A program made the position numbers and the translations under genes. A stretch of 6,104 nt of DNA from Pseudomonadota bacterium (GTDB lineage: Bacteria; Pseudomonadota; Gammaproteobacteria; Burkholderiales; Burkholderiaceae_D), in the NCBI GenBank assembly GCA_023391395.1, contig JAEWBA010000034.1, positions 1-6,104 of the forward strand, written 5' to 3'. Under the pieces are notes generated by a model. It ran no database searches. It saw nothing but the letters and a program-made list of their open reading frames with translations, and was not told the DNA's origin. Each line of letters opens with the position of its first letter. The stretch's first letter is position 1. Shown here one piece after another: positions 1-6,104 of the stretch.

Positions 1-483
<483 letters not shown>

Positions 484-534
484 TTACCTATGATTATCAA
501 CGCGTTGCCGAGTACGGATGCGCCCGATTAGACA

Positions 535-544
535 GGAAAGGAAA
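535..544 (+). promoter_or_regulatory. Ribosome binding site of the SDR gene
   Basis: Purine-rich GGAAAGGAAA stands 5 bases before the ATG at 550 and supports that start. Confidence 0.7.
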
Positions 545-549
545 TCAAA

Positions 550-1377
550 ATGGCTGACGTTATTGTTGTCATCGGGGCGGGATCAATCGGCCAAGCAGTC
601 GCTCGGCGCGTGAGCGCGGGAAAGCACGTTCTTTTGGCCGATCTGCGCGAGGAAAACGCCAACGCTGCTGCCAAGACCCTCAGTGAGGCCGGATTTGAGG
701 GGAGTGCCACGAACGTCGATGTGTCTTCCCGTGAGTCGGTCCATGTGCTCGTCGAGAAGGCCACCTCTCTGGGGGCCATCACAGGGGTCATTCACGCTGC
801 GGGCGTGTCGCCAACACAGGCATCGCCGGCGACTATCCTGAAGGTCGATCTGTATGGCACGGCACTTGTGCTAGAAGAGTTCGGCAATGTGATTACGCGC
901 GGCGGAGCGGGTGTAGTGATCGCGTCGCAGTCTGGGCACCGTCTTCCTGCCCTGACCCCCGAGCAGAACAAGGCCTTGGCAATGACACCGCCGGACGATC
1001 TGCTCGCGCTTCCCATGCTTCAGCCGGATCAGGTGACGGACCCGCTCCACGCCTATCAGATTTCCAAACGCGGGAACGCACTGCGCGTCATGGCCGAGGC
1101 GGTGCGCTGGGGCAAGCGCGGTGCACGGGTCAACACCATCAGCCCTGGCATCATCATCACGCCGCTCGCCAAGGATGAACTGTCCGGCCCGCGCGGTCCG
1201 GGATACCGGCGCATGATCGAACTCTGCCCGGCGGGGCGCGCCGGCACCCCGGACGAGGTGGGGAATGTGGGCGCGTTGCTGATGGGGCCTGATGGCGCGT
1301 TTATCACGGGCAGCGACTTTCTCATGGACGGTGGCATCACCGCCGCCTACTGGTACGGTGACCTTGTGCCCACGTGA
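550..1377 (+). CDS. Short-chain dehydrogenase/reductase (SDR family)
   Basis: Complete 275-residue protein, close to the 250-280 usual for classical SDRs. The Rossmann nucleotide-binding glycine motif is a variant, VIGAGSIGQA (residues 7-16), instead of TGxxxGIG. Asp31 at the end of the second strand suggests NAD(H) over NADP(H), although Arg33 follows closely. NVDVSS (55-60) should contact adenine, and HAAG (82-85) replaces the usual NNAG. The probable catalytic residues are Ser126 or Ser128 in ASQSGH, then Tyr169 and Lys173 in YQISK; the ISPGIIITP segment (197-205) closes the active site. An insertion of about 25 residues between the Ser and Tyr motifs (roughly 131-165) is longer than in compact SDRs and probably shapes the substrate lid. 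The C-terminal part has ITGSDFLMDGG, the usual SDR end signature. Cytosolic, no signal peptide. Substrate unknown. No convincing terminator follows. Confidence 0.93.
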   Translation: MADVIVVIGAGSIGQAVARRVSAGKHVLLADLREENANAAAKTLSEAGFEGSATNVDVSSRESVHVLVEKATSLGAITGVIHAAGVSPTQASPATILKVDLYGTALVLEEFGNVITRGGAGVVIASQSGHRLPALTPEQNKALAMTPPDDLLALPMLQPDQVTDPLHAYQISKRGNALRVMAEAVRWGKRGARVNTISPGIIITPLAKDELSGPRGPGYRRMIELCPAGRAGTPDEVGNVGALLMGPDGAFITGSDFLMDGGITAAYWYGDLVPT

Positions 1378-1545
1378 ATGCAGCCGGCGACCGGAGCTAT
1401 GCATAACCGATGGTAGCGGGAGCCGACGCACCTCCCACAATCCCCTTTGGAGTGGTTTCGGACATCCGGTACCGCTGTGAGCAGACACATACAGGAAATC
1501 CGGCCAATCGACTGGGTAGGGTCGGGAGCAGACATTAACGAACGG

Positions 1546-1565
1546 CCGCTTTCGACCCAAAGCGG
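1546..1565. repeat. Hairpin containing the CGACCCAAAGCGGA repeat, copy 1
   Basis: CCGCTTT (1546-1552) and AAAGCGG (1559-1565) form a perfect 7-bp stem with loop CGACCC. The loop plus right arm is part of a 14-base word, CGACCCAAAGCGGA (1553-1566), that recurs exactly at 3593-3606. It lies in the 213-bp gap between the convergent SDR gene and the cassette array, where no gene is visible. It could work as a bidirectional transcription stop, but no T-run follows, so this is not called a terminator. Confidence 0.55.
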
Positions 1566-1590
1566 AAGTTGGCGCTTCCAAAAAGCGGTC

Positions 1591-1645
1591 GCTGAACGGT
1601 TAAGCTGACCGACGCGCAGCGTCCGTGTCGAGCGACGAGTTAGAC
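1591..1645 (-). other. attC: attC recombination site A (distal end of array)
   Basis: Read on the - strand: R'' is GTCTAAC (1639-1645, a perfect RYYYAAC), then a 5-base spacer and L'' GCTCGAC (1627-1633). A small hairpin GACGC-TGC-GCGTC follows (1611-1623), then L' GTCAGC (1604-1609) and R' GTTCAGC (1591-1597). L' is the complement of L'' minus one base. That leaves one extrahelical base in L'', the asymmetry by which IntI orients attC sites, and it agrees with the - strand direction of the genes. R' keeps GTT but departs from GTTRRRY at the fourth base. The stop codon TAA of the upstream gene lies inside R'', as is typical of cassettes. Length 55 bp, at the short end for attC. Confidence 0.75.
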
Positions 1646-2017
1646 AATACCACTACTATGGCCGACGACAATCTGCCAACTTTCGCTTTCCGAGAGGCGC
1701 CAAATACGCGTATATCGTAGATCAGCAGTAAATTGTGAGCCGCCATAAGCGCCAGATAACTTCATGCGGACTGACACGACGTAAAATTGGCCACACGCTT
1801 TCACAAGTATTTCAGACGGCTCAATCATGTGAAATTTAAGCACTCCAGATCGGTGCAACTCGAGATCATCTTGTTTACCGAATACTTGGCCGAGATGGTT
1901 AGTAAAAATAAGTTCGGACGAAATCAATTCATCAAGAACATTAAGATCGGACGCGAGCATGGCCAGCCGTAGGCGCTCTTCGTTTTTCATGATCTGTTGT
2001 TCGAAGTCGGTTGTCAC
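1640..2017 (-). CDS. NTF2/SnoaL-like (DUF4440-type) cassette protein
   Basis: Protein of 125 residues starting at a GTG (2017). This start is chosen because AGGAG stands 7 bases upstream and the same module, CAACTTCAGGAGCA, precedes the start of the neighbouring VOC gene at the same distance. A longer open frame up to 2137 merely translates the attC site. The sequence has the cone-shaped NTF2 pattern: an N-terminal helix pair (MKNEERLRLAMLASDLNVLDELI), a strand ending in LIFTNHLGQVF, a middle segment, then three long antiparallel strands (FYVVSVRMKLSGAY, FTADLRYTRIWRL, WQIVVGHSSGIV). Family members include small isomerases, cyclases and ligand-binding proteins; catalysis cannot be assigned. 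No signal peptide or membrane segment. The stop TAA is embedded in attC site A. No promoter fits in the 24 bases between attC and the start, so expression must come from upstream, probably the VOC cassette promoter. Confidence 0.82.
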   Translation of the reverse strand: MTTDFEQQIMKNEERLRLAMLASDLNVLDELISSELIFTNHLGQVFGKQDDLELHRSGVLKFHMIEPSEILVKACGQFYVVSVRMKLSGAYGGSQFTADLRYTRIWRLSESESWQIVVGHSSGIV

Positions 2018-2022
2018 AGCAA

Positions 2023-2036
2023 TGCTCCTGAAGTTG
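2023..2036 (-). promoter_or_regulatory. Shared translation-start module of the NTF2-like gene
   Basis: CAACTTCAGGAGCA on the - strand, five bases before the GTG start. It differs at one base from the element at 2633-2646, with identical spacing, and settles GTG 2017 as the start. Confidence 0.7.
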
Positions 2037-2041
2037 TGGTC

Positions 2042-2144
2042 TGTTAACTGGCGCCGGAGCCGAAAGCGGAGGGTACAAACAGCGGGCATGGAAATGCCAA
2101 AGGCATGCCCGTTGTTTGCGTCCGCGTTGAATCGCAAGTTAGGC
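2042..2144 (-). other. attC: attC recombination site B (long, with strong central hairpin)
   Basis: On the - strand it opens with R'' GCCTAAC (2138-2144), spacer TTGCG and L''-like ATTCAAC (2126-2132). The centre is a long hairpin: 2104-2119 pairs with 2075-2090 at 14 of 16 positions, extended after a bulge by GCGGA/TCCGC, with a 13-base tip. The expected closing arm is poor: after TCCGC there is no clear L', and the best R' is GTTAACA (2042-2048), which keeps GTTA but not RRY. Length about 103 bp, as for VCR-type or environmental attC sites. It could be a site whose right half was altered by mutation or by an imprecise recombination. Confidence 0.65.
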
Positions 2145-2213
2145 TAGGGCGTGGAGGCACGGTATTGCACACTATAGGCCCCAACGGTGGAGTGGACGCG
2201 CCCCATATGTCGA

Positions 2214-2627
2214 TTATTCGGGCAGATGGCAGACCGCTTCAATGTTGTTGCCCTCCGGGTCAATGACAAACGCTCCGTAATAATTTGCATGATAGTCCGG
2301 CCGGAGCCCAGGGACTCCATTGTCTTTCCCACCAGCGGCAATGGCCGCTTTATAGAAAGCATCTACTTGCGCACGATTTTTTGCTCGCCAGGCGAGGTGG
2401 CAGCCGGAAGTTGCAGTTGGGCCGCCATACGGAGAAGGTCCGTCGATAAACCACACATCGGCTTTTTTACCGTCAGGCTCAGATGCGTCTGGGTAGGCAA
2501 ACCCAAGAATGTTTGCGCCGAAATTACCTTCGAAACATACGCTGTAGCCTAGTGGCTCCAGAGCTGCGCTATAAAACGCCTTGGCGCGAGCGATATTGAT
2601 AACGCGGAATGTCATATGGTCAAGCAT
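2214..2627 (-). CDS. VOC (glyoxalase/bleomycin-resistance fold) cassette protein
   Basis: Protein of 137 residues, the usual length for single-chain VOC proteins with two beta-alpha-beta-beta-beta modules. The first module starts MLDHMTFRVINIARAKAFYS and the second at CHLAWRAKNRAQVDAFYKAA; the last strand is GAFVIDPEGNNIEAV. Possible metal ligands at the positions used in the family are His4, His77 and Glu130. Members range from glyoxalase I to fosfomycin- or bleomycin-resistance proteins, but most cassette-borne ones are uncharacterised, and this one lacks features that would decide. Start ATG 2627 is chosen because TTTAGGAGC lies just upstream; a longer frame to 2675 has no support. Between the attC site and the start lie a promoter-like signal and a LexA-type operator. 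A 69-bp spacer separates the stop from attC site B. No signal peptide. Confidence 0.88.
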   Translation of the reverse strand: MLDHMTFRVINIARAKAFYSAALEPLGYSVCFEGNFGANILGFAYPDASEPDGKKADVWFIDGPSPYGGPTATSGCHLAWRAKNRAQVDAFYKAAIAAGGKDNGVPGLRPDYHANYYGAFVIDPEGNNIEAVCHLPE

Positions 2628-2632
2628 GCGGG

Positions 2633-2646
2633 TGCTCCTAAAGTTG
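2633..2646 (-). promoter_or_regulatory. Shared translation-start module of the VOC gene
   Basis: CAACTTTAGGAGCA on the - strand, five bases before ATG 2627. It matches 13 of 14 bases of the element before the NTF2-like gene (2023-2036). Confidence 0.7.
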
Positions 2647-2673
2647 GTTTGACGTGCGAGTTGGCACCTCGAC

Positions 2674-2702
2674 ACTGTATATACATACAGCTTTCATGGC
2701 AA
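2674..2702 (-). promoter_or_regulatory. Sigma70-type promoter candidate for the VOC cassette
   Basis: On the - strand TTGCCA (2697-2702; 5 of 6 to TTGACA) is separated by exactly 17 bp from TACAGT (2674-2679; 4 of 6 to TATAAT). Transcription would start near 2667, about 40 bases before the ATG. Most cassettes lack a promoter, so this one could serve both the VOC and the NTF2-like genes. Inferred from motif match only. Confidence 0.5.
2675..2690. promoter_or_regulatory. LexA (SOS) box candidate
   Basis: CTGTATATACATACAG has the CTGT-N8-ACAG half sites of the LexA operator of beta- and gamma-proteobacteria, and its core agrees with the alternating AT consensus at 7 of 8 positions. It covers part of the spacer and the -10 of the candidate promoter, a position where a repressor would block RNA polymerase. 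If real, the VOC cassette would be silent until DNA damage. The outer bases (AC left, CT right) are only a partial match to TA...TA. Confidence 0.55.
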
Positions 2703-2705
2703 GAG

Positions 2706-2765
2706 GCCTAACGCCAAACTAACAGGCGTCGCTATGCGGCATCCGGGTTAAGTGACGAGTTAAAT
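2706..2765 (-). other. attC: attC recombination site C (proximal end of array)
   Basis: The best of the three sites. On the - strand: R'' ATTTAAC (2759-2765), spacer TCGTC, L'' ACTTAAC (2747-2753), a central 23-base part, L' GTTAGT (2718-2723), spacer TTGGC and R' GTTAGGC (2706-2712). R'' and R' both fit RYYYAAC/GTTRRRY. L' is the exact complement of L'' lacking one base, giving the canonical extrahelical base in L''. Length 60 bp, as in many class 1 cassettes. No gene ends in its R'' arm: the frame with the TAA there has another stop two codons earlier, so the cassette that supplied this site seems to have lost its gene. Confidence 0.82.
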
Positions 2766-2912
2766 GGTTTACTTTGAATTTGACGAAAACTATCGCATTG
2801 AGTAAAAAACCTGCTATTAATGCGCCGGTCGTTGAATAGAGCAATGATCGATTCATTGCGTGGAGACCGGTAAGCACCCTTTCGCTACAACTGAGTGGCT
2901 TACCGACCGATC
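2766..2912. other. Gap between attC site C and the recombinase pseudogene: two inverted repeats
   Basis: No gene is visible. GCAATGA (2841-2847) and TCATTGC (2853-2859) form a 7-bp stem around TCGAT. CGGTAAGC (2868-2875) and GCTTACCG (2898-2905) form an 8-bp inverted repeat just after the recombinase stop, extendable on the - strand with one bulge and a G-T pair. No T-run follows, so neither is a clear intrinsic terminator; they could be remains of an element end. Confidence 0.4.
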
Positions 2913-3537
2913 CTATACCTCCGTCTGTTCTGCTATCTCGAGCGCGTCGTCGATTTCGATGCCGAGATAGCGGACCGTGCTTTCCAGCTTCGTATGCCCT
3001 AGAAGCAGCTGAACGGCCCGAAGGTTCTTGGTGCGCCGGTAGATCAACGTCGCCTTCGTTCGCCGCATGGTGTGCGTGCCGTACGCCGCGGCATCCAGAC
3101 CAATCGACTCGACCCAGCCAGTGACGATACGCGCGTACTGGCGAGTAGAAAGGTGCGGTGACTTGGATACCCTGCTTGGAAAGAGGTAGTCATCTGATGC
3201 GAGGCACGCCGCGTCAATCCAGGCGGCGACCGACTGCCGCGTCAGCTCGGTAATTTCAAACTGCCCGGGCCGATGCGTCTTGCACTGCATGACCATGGCG
3301 CGCGGAAAAATGCTCTTCCCTGTGAAATGTCGCGGACGCGCAAAGTGACCAAATCGCTGCCGCGTAGCTTACTGTCGATGGCCAGGTTGAAGAGGGCCAG
3401 ATCCCGCATCTTTTCAACCAGCTGGAGCCGTATGCGGATCGCCCAAATTTCTTTTAGCTTCAGTGGAGCCTTCTGGCCGACCAGCCGGCCTTGTTCCAAG
3501 GAACATGTGGTTTTGCTTCATGGAGATTGGGTCTCAT
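2913..3537 (-). pseudogene. Small tyrosine recombinase (phage-integrase family), disrupted by two frameshifts
   Basis: The pieces assemble into one recombinase of roughly 205-210 residues, a short catalytic-domain-only type. Frame 1 starts at ATG 3537, with AAGGAG 6 bases upstream, and gives MRPNLHEAKPHVPWNK. The next frame takes over at about 3488 with GRLVGQKAPLKLKEIWAIR and runs through SKLRGSDLVTLRV, the box I arginine. The third frame starts near 3300 (MVMQCKTHRP) and runs to TAG 2913-2915. The parts together keep all catalytic residues: Arg in LRGSDL, Lys in CKT, the HxxR of HTMRR, His of LLGHTK and the Tyr nucleophile of VRYLG. Both junctions are explained by one missing base each. It lacks the additional domain and length of IntI, so it is not an integron integrase. 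Probably inactive, unless the shifts are sequencing errors. Confidence 0.85.
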
Positions 3538-3592
3538 GAGATTCTCCTTCATTGAAAGGAATCCCATTGTTGCTACCGGAAAGGACGCTTAA

Positions 3593-3606
3593 CGACCCAA
3601 AGCGGA
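3593..3606. repeat. CGACCCAAAGCGGA repeat, copy 2
   Basis: Exact copy of 1553-1566, in the 94-bp gap between the recombinase pseudogene and the STAS-like gene. Here the left hairpin arm is missing. The longer string AAGCGGACAATCG (3600-3612) is matched at 12 of 13 bases at 4430-4442 near selU. Confidence 0.55.
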
Positions 3607-3631
3607 CAATCGTTGAATGAGATTTGCTTGC

Positions 3632-4018
3632 TTATACGGTCTTGTTCTGTGACAAGCCTCCGCCAGATAACCAAGTGACGGCTTCGACCATGTCGTTATA
3701 GAAGACCTTGTGGTTTTCGTGATCAAACTTCAAACGCGCCAGAAAAGCCATCTGGCTGTTAGGGACAATCACCGCAATCTTGAAACCTAAGGCATTTAAA
3801 TCCGCGTTAAGCGCGCGCTGTTTTTGAATGTGGGCATACGTTGGCGGCGACATCTGAAGGTCATCTAACAACAGCTTTTTGCAGCCGGTACTTTTTTCGA
3901 TCTGAAGAATACATTCATGACGCAGGCCCAGTAATTCTTTACTCGGCTCGCCTTTTATGCGGGCAATGATTATCTGCCCAACCAGTTCAACCCAAACTTT
4001 ATCTAAAAAATTTTCCAT
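3632..4018 (-). CDS. Small STAS/SpoIIAA-like protein, function unknown
   Basis: Intact 128-residue protein without signal peptide or membrane segment. The pattern of strand (VWVELVGQIIIARIKGE), helix (ELLGLRHECILQIEKSTG), strand with acidic end (KKLLLDDLQM), helix, strand (FKIAVIVP), helix (MAFLARLKF) and a closing VFYNDMVEAVTWLSGG resembles the SpoIIAA-like/STAS fold of small proteobacterial proteins. In such proteins the KVFYND...EAxxWL end is typical. STAS proteins often act as partner-binding or anti-anti-sigma modules, but no partner gene is here. The start ATG lies 12 bases after the stop of the nhaA remnant, and only a weak GAGA precedes it. The gene is visibly more AT-rich than selU and the SDR gene, suggesting acquisition. 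No attC site adjoins it, so it is not called a cassette. Gene call is fair, fold assignment tentative. Confidence 0.7.
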   Translation of the reverse strand: MENFLDKVWVELVGQIIIARIKGEPSKELLGLRHECILQIEKSTGCKKLLLDDLQMSPPTYAHIQKQRALNADLNALGFKIAVIVPNSQMAFLARLKFDHENHKVFYNDMVEAVTWLSGGGLSQNKTV

Positions 4019-4030
4019 GTATCTCGGTAC

Positions 4031-4351
4031 CTAGACTCTCGCCGCCCCAAGGTTTCTCGTATTCGGATCGCTGTCGATAGTGTTCGGTCCACTCGGCACG
4101 CTGGATAACTCACGCACCGGCTCAAGGTCGATCACGAGGAAAAAATGCAGATAGCCATCACCGGCACGTGAGTGGGCAATGTCTAGTGGAATGCTGATGA
4201 AGACAATGAGAAGAATGCCGCCAGACTTCTCGAAGTCAAAGAAACGCTTGAAAGTGTCGGGTTTTTGAACTGCCGCCACAGTCTTTCCAGATAGAAAAGC
4301 TGCGTGGCGGCCCGACCAGCGCATAAACGTGCCCGCCTCGCTGGTGGACAC
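4031..4351 (-). pseudogene. nhaA: nhaA (Na+/H+ antiporter) N-terminal remnant with internal deletion
   Basis: A 106-codon open frame contains two blocks typical of the NhaA N-terminus. TFKRFFDFEKSGGILLIV (residues 33-50) matches the RFF...ASGGIxLI start before the first membrane helix. DGYLHFFLVIDLEPVREL (65-82) matches the second helix block DALMAxFFLLVGLExKREL. In NhaA about 30-35 residues lie between these blocks; here they are separated by about 14, so a stretch including the outer loop is gone without loss of frame. After VREL the similarity stops within a few residues; the remaining 300 or so residues of the antiporter, including the Asp-Asp ion-binding site, are absent. It cannot be a working antiporter. 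The original start is unclear; TATAAT (4360-4365) lies upstream, without a good -35. Confidence 0.65.
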
Positions 4352-4365
4352 CCACCATAATTATA

Positions 4366-4382
4366 TCTCAGTACCCCTGAGA
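4366..4382. repeat. Short inverted repeat upstream of the nhaA remnant
   Basis: TCTCAG (4366-4371) and CTGAGA (4377-4382) pair perfectly around TACCC. On the - strand it directly precedes TATAAT (4360-4365), so it may be an operator-like element of the lost nhaA promoter or only a chance hairpin. The rest of the 117-bp gap to selU shows no gene. Confidence 0.3.
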
Positions 4383-4468
4383 CGCTTTGTTCGAGTAGTG
4401 AGCTCATATGGACGTCCGGTTCTGGCCGGAAGCGGACACTCGATATAGGGCCAATGATTCCGCTAGGC

Positions 4469-5566
4469 CTACGCCCGTCGTCTCCGCAAATAATCGAGCA
4501 CTTCATGCTGGTCGCCGCTGAACTCGACGCGCGATGATTTGAGTTTGCGCTGGTAGGCATACATGGGATCGTAGTATTCCGTCAGCAGCGCCTCGATCCA
4601 TTTGCGATGCAGCTCAACGGCGCCGCTGCGCTCCTGCTTCTCCAGGGCCGCATCCATGATCTTCGCCAGGCGTTGATGGCGCTCACCTCCCAGACGCCTG
4701 GCGATATTGTCCAGGCTCTGACGCAGTCGTTCGGCGAACAAATCAAAACCCGCTTCCTCGCCATGCAGCGCGACGAACTGGCTGCGCAGGTCGATGACAT
4801 AGTCGCGCAGTATGCGCTGCACCCGGTTTTCCAGGCTGTCTTCCAGCCAGACCATGGGGCAAGCTTGCATGGCCTGGTACAGCGTCGGCGGCAGGCTGCA
4901 ACTGCCGATGGTGCGGCTTTCGTCTTCCACTACGAATCGACCATGGCCGGCTGCGCGCTTTTTCAGGATGTCGATGGACAGGCGGTTCTCGAAGCTGATC
5001 TGCGCCGGCTGGCCGGTCGCATGCTTGCCGAAGCTGGAGCCGCGGTGATGGGCATGGCCTTCCAGGTCGAGGCTGTTGTCGAGCTGACGCAGCACATCAG
5101 TTTTGCCGGTTCCCGTCATCCCGCCCAGCACCACGAAAGCGCATTCGGTAATTGCCTGCTCGAGGTTCTCCAACAGAAAGCCACGCATGGCCTTGTAGCC
5201 GCCGATCACGCGCGGATAGTCGAGGCCGGCCTCTTCCTTCAGCCATTGCTGCGTGATCTGCGAACGCAAGCCGCCGCGAAAACAATACAAATAGCCCCCG
5301 GGATGGCTGCGCGCAAAATCGGCCCAAGCAGCGATGCGCTGCGTCTTGGTCTGGCCGTTGACCAGCCGATGACCGAGGGCCAGTGCTGCCTCCTGGCCCT
5401 GTTGCGTGTAGCAGGTGCCGACCTTCTGCCGCTCGACGTCGTTCATCAGCGGCAAATTCACGGCGCCCGGGAAGGCGCCCTTGTTGAATTCGATGGGCGC
5501 ACGCACGTCCATCAGCGGCACGTCGCCGAGAAAGAGCTCGCGGTAATTGTCGGTGTCCTCGCGCAT
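4469..5566 (-). CDS. selU: tRNA 2-selenouridine synthase
   Basis: 365 residues, the length of E. coli SelU/YbbB (MnmH). The enzyme replaces sulfur by selenium in 2-thiouridine at wobble position 34 of Lys, Glu and Gln tRNAs, via a geranylated intermediate, using selenophosphate made by SelD. The N-terminal rhodanese domain (about 1-128) includes [20 protein letters not shown] and the active loop [10 protein letters not shown], with Cys95 the counterpart of the essential Cys97 of E. coli. The second domain begins with a P-loop, GGMTGTGKT (148-156), followed by HRGSSFG (174-180) and [11 protein letters not shown], as in the family. The ATG at 5566 is chosen because its A is also the last base of the selD stop (TGATG), a classic coupled start; a longer frame only overlaps selD. 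Cytosolic. It is the last gene of the operon. Confidence 0.97.
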
Positions 5567-6104
5567 CACAAGACTTCGACCGCATGATTTCGCCGCTCGA
5601 CCAGTTCGCCGATCGGCTCCAGATCGAGGTCCAGTTCGGCCAGGGCGGACCGGAACTCGGCCTCGCCTTCGGGCGCCACGGCCACCAGCAGGCCGCCGCA
5701 GGTCTGGGGGTCGCACAACAGGTTCACCTGGTCCTGGCCGATGGGGGCGATGCGCTCGCCGTAGCTATCGAAGTTGCGGCCGGTACCGCCGGGCACACAG
5801 CCTTCGGCCAGGTAGTAGTCGACGCCTGGCAGGCGCGGCACCTTGGCAAACTCGATGCGGGCGCTGACGCCGCTGCCGTCGGCCATTTCTACCAGGTGGC
5901 CGAGCAGGCCGAAGCCAGTCACGTCGGTCATGGCCGTGACGCCGTCCAGTTTGCCGAAACGGCTGCCGGCCTTGTTCAGGGTACACATCCAGTCGCGCGC
6001 CAGGCCGATGTCTTCGGTGCGCAGCTTGGATTTTTTCTCGGCGGTGGTCATGATGCCGATGCCGAGCGGCTTGGTCAGGTACAGCTTGCAGCCTACTGTG
6101 GCGG
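5566..6104 (-). CDS. selD: Selenophosphate synthetase, C-terminal half (cut by right window edge)
   Basis: The frame is open to the window edge and ends at TGA 5566-5568; 178 residues are present of about 345. SelD makes selenophosphate from selenide and ATP, the selenium donor for SelU next door and for selenocysteine. Visible motifs are [12 protein letters not shown] followed by TTAEKKSK, the conserved [13 protein letters not shown] segment of the PurM/AIRS-like fold, and [15 protein letters not shown] near the C-terminus. The first in-frame ATG (6051) lies inside the conserved [13 protein letters not shown] segment and is not the start. The catalytic Cys/Sec and glycine-rich N-terminal loop lie outside. 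It overlaps selU by one base (TGATG), which shows a two-gene operon dedicated to selenium. Confidence 0.96.

Follow-up and report, generated by a model that had tools for sequence, protein, structure and literature searches.

The DNA described here, referred to as the window, is a stretch of 6,104 bases from a Pseudomonadota bacterium (assembly GCA_023391395.1, contig JAEWBA010000034.1, positions 1 to 6,104 of the forward strand), and the element in question is a gene cassette in which a VOC-fold gene of the glyoxalase superfamily is preceded by a predicted promoter under a LexA-type box. Read from left to right, the window opens with the terminal part of an aldo-keto reductase gene and a gene for an SDR; next come a short array of cassettes on the minus strand and a broken tyrosine recombinase, followed by two open reading frames (ORFs) without a Pfam family, selU and a partial selD. 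The SOS control known from integrons acts on the integrase, and with it on the timing of cassette movement. The features of the array are listed below, with the scores of two covariance models of attC sites, R1 and R2, the construction of which is given later.

1591..1645, minus strand: attC site A, downstream end of a composite unit (R1 23.6 bits, E 9.3e-5; R2 34.7 bits, E 4.1e-7)
1640..2017, minus strand: DUF4440 (NTF2-like) gene, downstream neighbour of the VOC gene (Pfam PF14534, E 7.3e-18 on 1640-2014)
2043..2144, minus strand: attC site B, with a long stem and its R' end missing (alignment with four homologous attC sites; fold z -3.59)
2214..2627, minus strand: VOC-fold gene (glyoxalase superfamily), 137 amino acids, ATG at 2627 (Pfam PF00903, E 1.2e-8)
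2674..2679, minus strand: predicted -10 hexamer TACAGT, overlapping the operator, in conserved columns
2675..2690, minus strand: LexA-type operator, palindromic, CTGTATGTATATACAG (CTGTATATACATACAG on the plus strand), a CTGT-N8-ACAG match
2697..2702, minus strand: predicted -35 hexamer TTGCCA, 3 nucleotides inside the cassette, CTTGC columns conserved
2706..2765, minus strand: attC site C (R1 27.5 bits, E 9.7e-6; R2 27.5 bits, E 2.1e-5)

The pattern CTGT-N8-ACAG occurs once in the window, at 2675-2690, with 0.09 occurrences expected, and at least one occurrence was seen in 18 of 200 dinucleotide shuffles. The box was also scored with a matrix covering all 16 positions, which was derived from 15 distinct boxes upstream of lexA (30 boxes in 18 genomes); these genomes are hosts of VOC homologues, and the LexA of the window organism may differ from theirs. 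On this matrix the window box reached 23.9 bits, the next site in the window 8.3 bits and the lexA boxes themselves 12.9-23.6 bits, all below the window box; the score of 23.9 bits was attained by none of 2000 windows shuffled by single bases. The predicted promoter, TTGCCA-17-TACAGT at 2702-2674 on the minus strand, agrees with the consensus at 9 of 12 positions. A preliminary description of this DNA had placed a LexA-type box over the -10 hexamer of this promoter and the promoter between attC site C and the VOC gene, and both statements stand, the box being the only one in the window and site C being found by both covariance models. Of the properties looked for in a member of an SOS regulon, a LexA-type box over a (predicted) promoter was thus found, as was retention of the box in orthologues.

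Retention was assessed by a scan of genome contigs with 29 aligned VOC proteins, which yielded 80 loci, the best 80 of 581 relatives. Among these, 41 had at least 76% identity and a start codon within the match, 37 had less than 70% identity, and two (L042 and L047) were excluded because the start codon lay outside the match. The preliminary description had held that absence of the palindrome from close relatives would speak against an operator; the opposite was found, with an exact CTGT-N8-ACAG in 31 of the 41 closest homologues and a box with one mismatch in five more, giving 36 of 41 within one mismatch. The box lies 41-53 nucleotides upstream of the start codon in 33 of 37 cases (the 36 homologues and the window). 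None of the 37 homologues below 70% identity has an exact box, and in only three of them is the best-scoring site within one mismatch, with a top score of 6.4 bits. Across 36 aligned upstream regions, the A-CTGT...ACAG-T columns hold 1.2-2.0 bits, with 1.6-2.0 bits per column at the ends of the box, the middle of the box 0.5-1.3 bits, the CTTGC columns of the -35 hexamer 0.6-1.0 bits and most remaining positions less than 0.4 bits; this is the pattern to be expected for a bound operator that is retained while the neighbouring sequence diverges. Conservation of the box before the VOC gene spans Burkholderiales and Rhodocyclales. Furthermore, the layout of ORFs around the VOC gene, compared by positions and sizes only, varies among 27 loci, and the operator and the VOC gene therefore appear to be a conserved unit.

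The leader between the operator and the VOC start contains an inverted repeat, GTGC-N6-GCAC at 2654-2667. Short dyads occur in the 45-nucleotide leader of 23 of 42 upstream regions, the window included, with 11.7 expected from shuffles; the dyad of one locus (L038) reads GGGC-N6-GCCC.

The assignment of this motif to LexA draws on a survey that covers the 18 host genomes of VOC homologues, the window's own organism lying outside it. Each of the 18 lexA genes is preceded by one or more boxes of this type within one mismatch; in seven the box is exact, and those of Zoogloea are among the inexact ones. A strict pattern, ACTGTAYNNNNRTACAGT, was found at 18 places in six host genomes and its reversed control at none. 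At 16 of these places (L177-L192) ORFs starting within 160 nucleotides were examined, with VOC genes assigned by reading: the strict box precedes a VOC gene in five cases, a PA0069-type radical SAM gene in four, lexA in two, imuA in one, a repair-linked radical SAM gene in one, and another gene or no clear gene in three. The two Zoogloea genomes have no strict-pattern site apart from the VOC box. LexA of beta- and gamma-Proteobacteria has been reported to use a CTGT-N8-ACAG-type motif (PMC3108266), and E. coli LexA gave gel shifts on such boxes over a -10 hexamer (PMC13393415). A small LexA core has been described for the beta-Proteobacteria, with LexA control of splB predicted (PMC3323433), and the PA0069-type radical SAM genes may be the splB of that work. 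From these sequence comparisons we infer that LexA binds the window box and that DNA damage induces the gene behind it.

Whether the box lies within a cassette depends on the attC sites. Integron integrase genes were detected at E 1e-60 or better in 100 of 250 genomes of the order, and 20 stretches around intI genes were scanned, giving 20 attC sites; model R1 was made from 16 of these, with four long ones omitted. Applied to the 20 intI stretches, R1 returned 132 matches, which correspond to 127 distinct sites and come from 19 of the stretches; every one of these sites lies on the strand opposite intI, and five of them also match on the other strand. On 18 lexA loci (57,435 bases, E up to 1) R1 gave no match. 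The second model, R2, was made from the 132 matches of R1. Sites A and C are both on the strand of the cassette genes; both R boxes of site C fit the consensus, and those of site A nearly do (13 of 14 positions). The 5' boundary of the cassette is the R' sequence GTTAGGC of site C at 2712-2706, in agreement with GTTRRRY, and the attC that a cassette unit carries at its 3' end is site A. As the -35 hexamer begins 3 nucleotides after GTTAGGC, the predicted promoter and the operator are wholly inside the cassette. A third match in the window, 4590-4671 inside selU (R1 12.3 bits, E 0.063; R2 9.0 bits), was taken as chance.

Site B is a true relative of attC with its R' end missing. It was matched by neither R1 nor R2; it shows 76% identity over 118 nucleotides to a stretch around an attC at 1627-1742 of a Limnobacter locus (L014, described below), and it can also be aligned with attC sites from a plasmid of Aquabacterium olei, from a Pseudomonas aeruginosa class 1 integron and from an array in genome G050. 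An R' region follows the last arm in all four homologous sites, whereas the arm in the window runs straight into the DUF4440 leader, and site B is predicted to be inactive. A cassette of the VOC gene alone, complete with a functional attC, was considered and rejected, the attC directly behind the VOC gene being site B without R'. Because site B lacks this end, the VOC and DUF4440 genes are predicted to form a composite unit from C to A, and co-transcription of the DUF4440 gene, which on reading likely starts with the GTG at 2017, with the VOC gene is therefore favoured.

These observations are best explained, with a probability of about 0.82, by a cassette from C to A that has its own predicted promoter under a LexA-type operator, so that the VOC gene would be silenced by LexA and induced by damage. 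The operator would be an ancestral switch of the VOC gene that travelled with it. LexA dimers would bind the box and block RNA polymerase; upon DNA damage, RecA-stimulated cleavage of LexA would free the promoter, and the VOC gene would be expressed as part of the SOS response. With the R' end of site B lost, the DUF4440 gene would be co-transcribed, and the two genes would move as one unit. With a LexA-type box over a predicted promoter within a cassette, damage would likely switch the gene on wherever the cassette lands.

A second array with the gene was found in Limnobacter sp. P1 (L014), in which an attC at 228-285 (44.9 bits with R1, 53.9 with R2) is followed by a FosX-like gene, then by the exact box CTGTATGCATGTACAG at 1016-1031 and the VOC gene at 1073-1486, and then by the attC at 1627-1742 (16.1 bits with R1, 29.7 with R2), which is homologous to site B of the window, has its R' region and is followed by a further gene. 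The VOC proteins of L014 and the window fall into one weakly supported group of 11 rows in which at least four host families are mixed, as would be expected of a mobile gene. Among 399 genomes of the order, a VOC gene of at least 75% identity was found only in the centre genome, and 70 of the 399 have some relative at E 1e-20. A search of plasmids with the VOC cassette (blastn) returned 84 records, with 71-76% identity over about one third of the query in the 15 matches listed, and four of 326 plasmid records exceeded 60% identity to the VOC protein (tblastn).

Several results weigh against a LexA-operated cassette. The single-strand folds of sites A and C are no better than those of shuffles (z 0.76 and -0.18), and neither a fold scan nor a scan for arm complementarity set any attC of the window apart from shuffles; the support for these two sites comes from covariance models built from sites picked by the authors, and the E-values are rough. 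At three loci (L001, L004 and L005) GTTAGG stands just upstream of the promoter, yet the models place no attC there. The promoter match taken alone is at chance level, with five such sites found and 2.4 expected. A box within one mismatch is absent from five of the 41 close homologues: L007, at 91% identity, has lost the left half of the box, and the others are L019 (88%), L036 and L037 (76-77%), and L027, the upstream region of which is partly masked. In L014, the E-value of the 3' attC is no better than 0.55 with R1 (5.3e-4 with R2), and neither model places an attC in the interval from the FosX-like gene to the VOC gene, so that the 5' boundary of the cassette is unseen there.

Among the alternatives, the one that survives best, while still unlikely, accepts the operator as real and ancestral and takes the stretch to be a decayed chromosomal island, with mobility in the past and the VOC gene an ordinary SOS gene. 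It would account for no intI being found in the window, for the missing R' of site B and the adjoining broken recombinase; arrays without an integrase are also common in genomes. However, site C retains both R boxes and site A 13 of 14 positions, both sites score on R1 and R2, and the VOC gene occurs in a second array, that of Limnobacter, together with an attC in which the R' region is present. It is improbable that a repressor other than LexA, with a half-site resembling that of LexA, binds the palindrome, as might be suggested by the variation of its eight middle bases among homologues, by the exact box at only seven of 18 host lexA genes and by the sequence-based nature of the link between box and LexA; in the host genomes the motif also stands in front of lexA, imuA and radical SAM repair genes, and the reported use of this motif by beta- and gammaproteobacterial LexA (PMC3108266) and the gel shifts with the E. 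coli protein (PMC13393415) argue for LexA.

The preliminary description had itself offered an alternative, namely that the box descends from a former intI promoter that ended up here, as could happen during recombination. Promoters of intI with LexA boxes over the -10 hexamer are indeed known (PMC3108266, PMC8876359), and a box of at least 20 bits lies within 150 nucleotides upstream of 2 of the 20 intI genes considered here (L148, 1876-1891; L167, 6136-6151), a third gene (L163) having an upstream box of 10.3 bits. However, an exact box precedes the VOC gene at 31 of 41 loci, and at 30 of these 31 no attC was found at E 0.001 in the stretch examined, so that the box belongs to the VOC gene, outside arrays as well as within them, and a leftover of this kind is very improbable. 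The suggestion that damage would couple cassette shuffling to VOC expression is not supported, as no intI was found in the window and a strong box stands before only the two intI genes named. A chance match can be disregarded, since the box is conserved across families and its full-motif score was reached in 0 of 2000 shuffles, even if CTGT-N8-ACAG alone recurs in shuffled sequence (18 of 200).

The proposed arrangement can be compared with several known systems. The integron promoter Pint also has a LexA box over its -10 hexamer in an integron setting (PMC3108266, PMC8876359); there it is the integrase that is controlled, whereas here it would be the cargo, through an operator that lies inside the cassette and moves with it. 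Promoters borne by cassettes (cmlA, qacE, ereA, qnrVC1 and toxin-antitoxin cassettes) similarly lie between attC and the gene, but constitutive expression is described for them and LexA control is not named in the available part of that source (PMC8876359). Cassette promoters of one Vibrio array differ with thermal and oxidative stress (PMC8876359), toxin-antitoxin cassettes of V. cholerae rise after mitomycin C while LexA is said not to act directly on their promoters (PMC5963079), and the V. cholerae promoter Pc is not induced by the SOS response (PMC3948777). The SOS-controlled qnrB and ISCR transposase genes resemble the window in being mobile with a promoter under a LexA site (PMC8876359, PMC13393415), and in ISCR1, 2 and 8 a CTGT-N8-ACAG box overlaps the -10 hexamer and binds LexA (PMC13393415); unlike the gene in the window, neither qnrB nor ISCR is an attC cassette. 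The SOS regulon of the beta-Proteobacteria (lexA, recA, imuA-imuB-dnaE2 and splB) uses the same box, but the core as given in the available text (PMC3323433) does not include a VOC gene, and the word 'glyoxalase' is absent from the main text. In the open-access literature searched, neither a cassette gene nor a VOC gene under LexA control was found to have been reported, subscription papers being mostly outside the search.

If the proposed arrangement is correct, cassette cargo would answer damage in any beta- or gammaproteobacterial recipient, at any position of an array and even in arrays without an integrase, and a VOC enzyme family of Burkholderiales and Rhodocyclales would be a candidate SOS gene that these searches did not find in print. 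A broader proposal, that integrons spread SOS-regulon members in finished form, each a LexA-operated promoter and its gene wholly between attC boundaries, is tentative and falls somewhat short of even odds. Such a cassette would join the DNA-damage response of its recipient on insertion, with no need of the integron promoter, and a locus in genome G034 would mean that this is not a matter of one gene alone. In this complete integron (L155, 12569-12803) a LexA-type box, CTGTATATGAATACAG, of 22.1 bits lies 35 nucleotides after an attC-like GTTAGGC end, which was recognised by eye and is not among the matches of R1, and before sequence other than VOC; it is a possible second SOS-boxed cassette. 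At the contig end, the sequence behind the box passes into a repeat that is present at two other places of G034 and is probably an insertion sequence. The succession of GTTAGRY and a LexA-type box was found in one of 398 genomes (G034, at L155) and its reversed control in two of 398, which is chance level in number.

The AlphaFold model of the VOC protein has a pLDDT of 89.6, and the nearest solved structure is 4z04, titled as a probable lactoylglutathione lyase in complex with glutathione. The two share the VOC fold, with 45% identity over the fold alignment and a TM-score of 0.81/0.89, whereas no SOS or cassette context is known for 4z04 from this analysis. A His/His/Glu set (H4, H77 and E130) is present in the window protein and invariant in the 29 aligned proteins; by comparison with glyoxalase I and FosA, we take these residues to be metal ligands. 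The product is predicted to be a metal-binding enzyme (His4, His77, Glu130) that probably uses glutathione. The weakest step of the interpretation is the function under SOS control, the enzyme perhaps removing a toxic electrophile that arises with DNA damage. In another phylum, two VOC-domain genes of Mycobacterium tuberculosis have been assigned to SigG, a sigma factor induced by DNA damage (PMC3776920), which likewise places VOC genes of the glyoxalase/bleomycin-resistance type in a DNA-damage regulon; there, in contrast, a sigma factor and a RecA-independent response are involved, with no LexA operator and no cassette in the available part of the source. A protective function is weakened by this case, since no added sensitivity to methylglyoxal or DNA damage was reported for a sigG mutant (PMC3776920), so that the protective role of SigG-type VOC genes is not demonstrated either. 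NCBIfam gave no name to either the VOC or the DUF4440 protein.

Two further features of the window follow.

2719..2877, minus strand: small ORF of 52 amino acids without a Pfam family, upstream of and running into attC site C
2913..3499, minus strand: broken tyrosine recombinase in two frames (PF00589 on 2913-3296)

The small ORF possibly belongs to the neighbouring cassette. Farther on, selU was named by a protein search and selD assigned by reading only; among the matches listed, no other protein exceeds 78% identity to the window SelU, and the best long DNA match to selU-selD among 250 genomes is 72%. An nhaA-I RNA motif was recorded at 4303-4353 on the minus strand (39 bits, Rfam gathering score 37), overlapped by an ORF of 106 amino acids without a Pfam family; no nhaA gene was recognised. 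A search of viral contigs gave no relative.

The recombinase was considered as an integron integrase and rejected, as it reaches only 25 bits with TIGR02249 against a cut-off of 265. No further recombinase was found among the ten window ORFs scanned with Pfam and no intI adjoining the array was found in the window, which does not hold a complete integron. A search of plasmids with the array (blastn) returned 320 records, of which the 20 matches listed cover only the recombinase region, at 67-73% identity; this region is thus about 70% identical in DNA to recombinase regions of proteobacterial plasmids. The array and the recombinase together are flanked by a perfect 14-nucleotide direct repeat, CGACCCAAAGCGGA, at 1553-1566 and 3593-3606.
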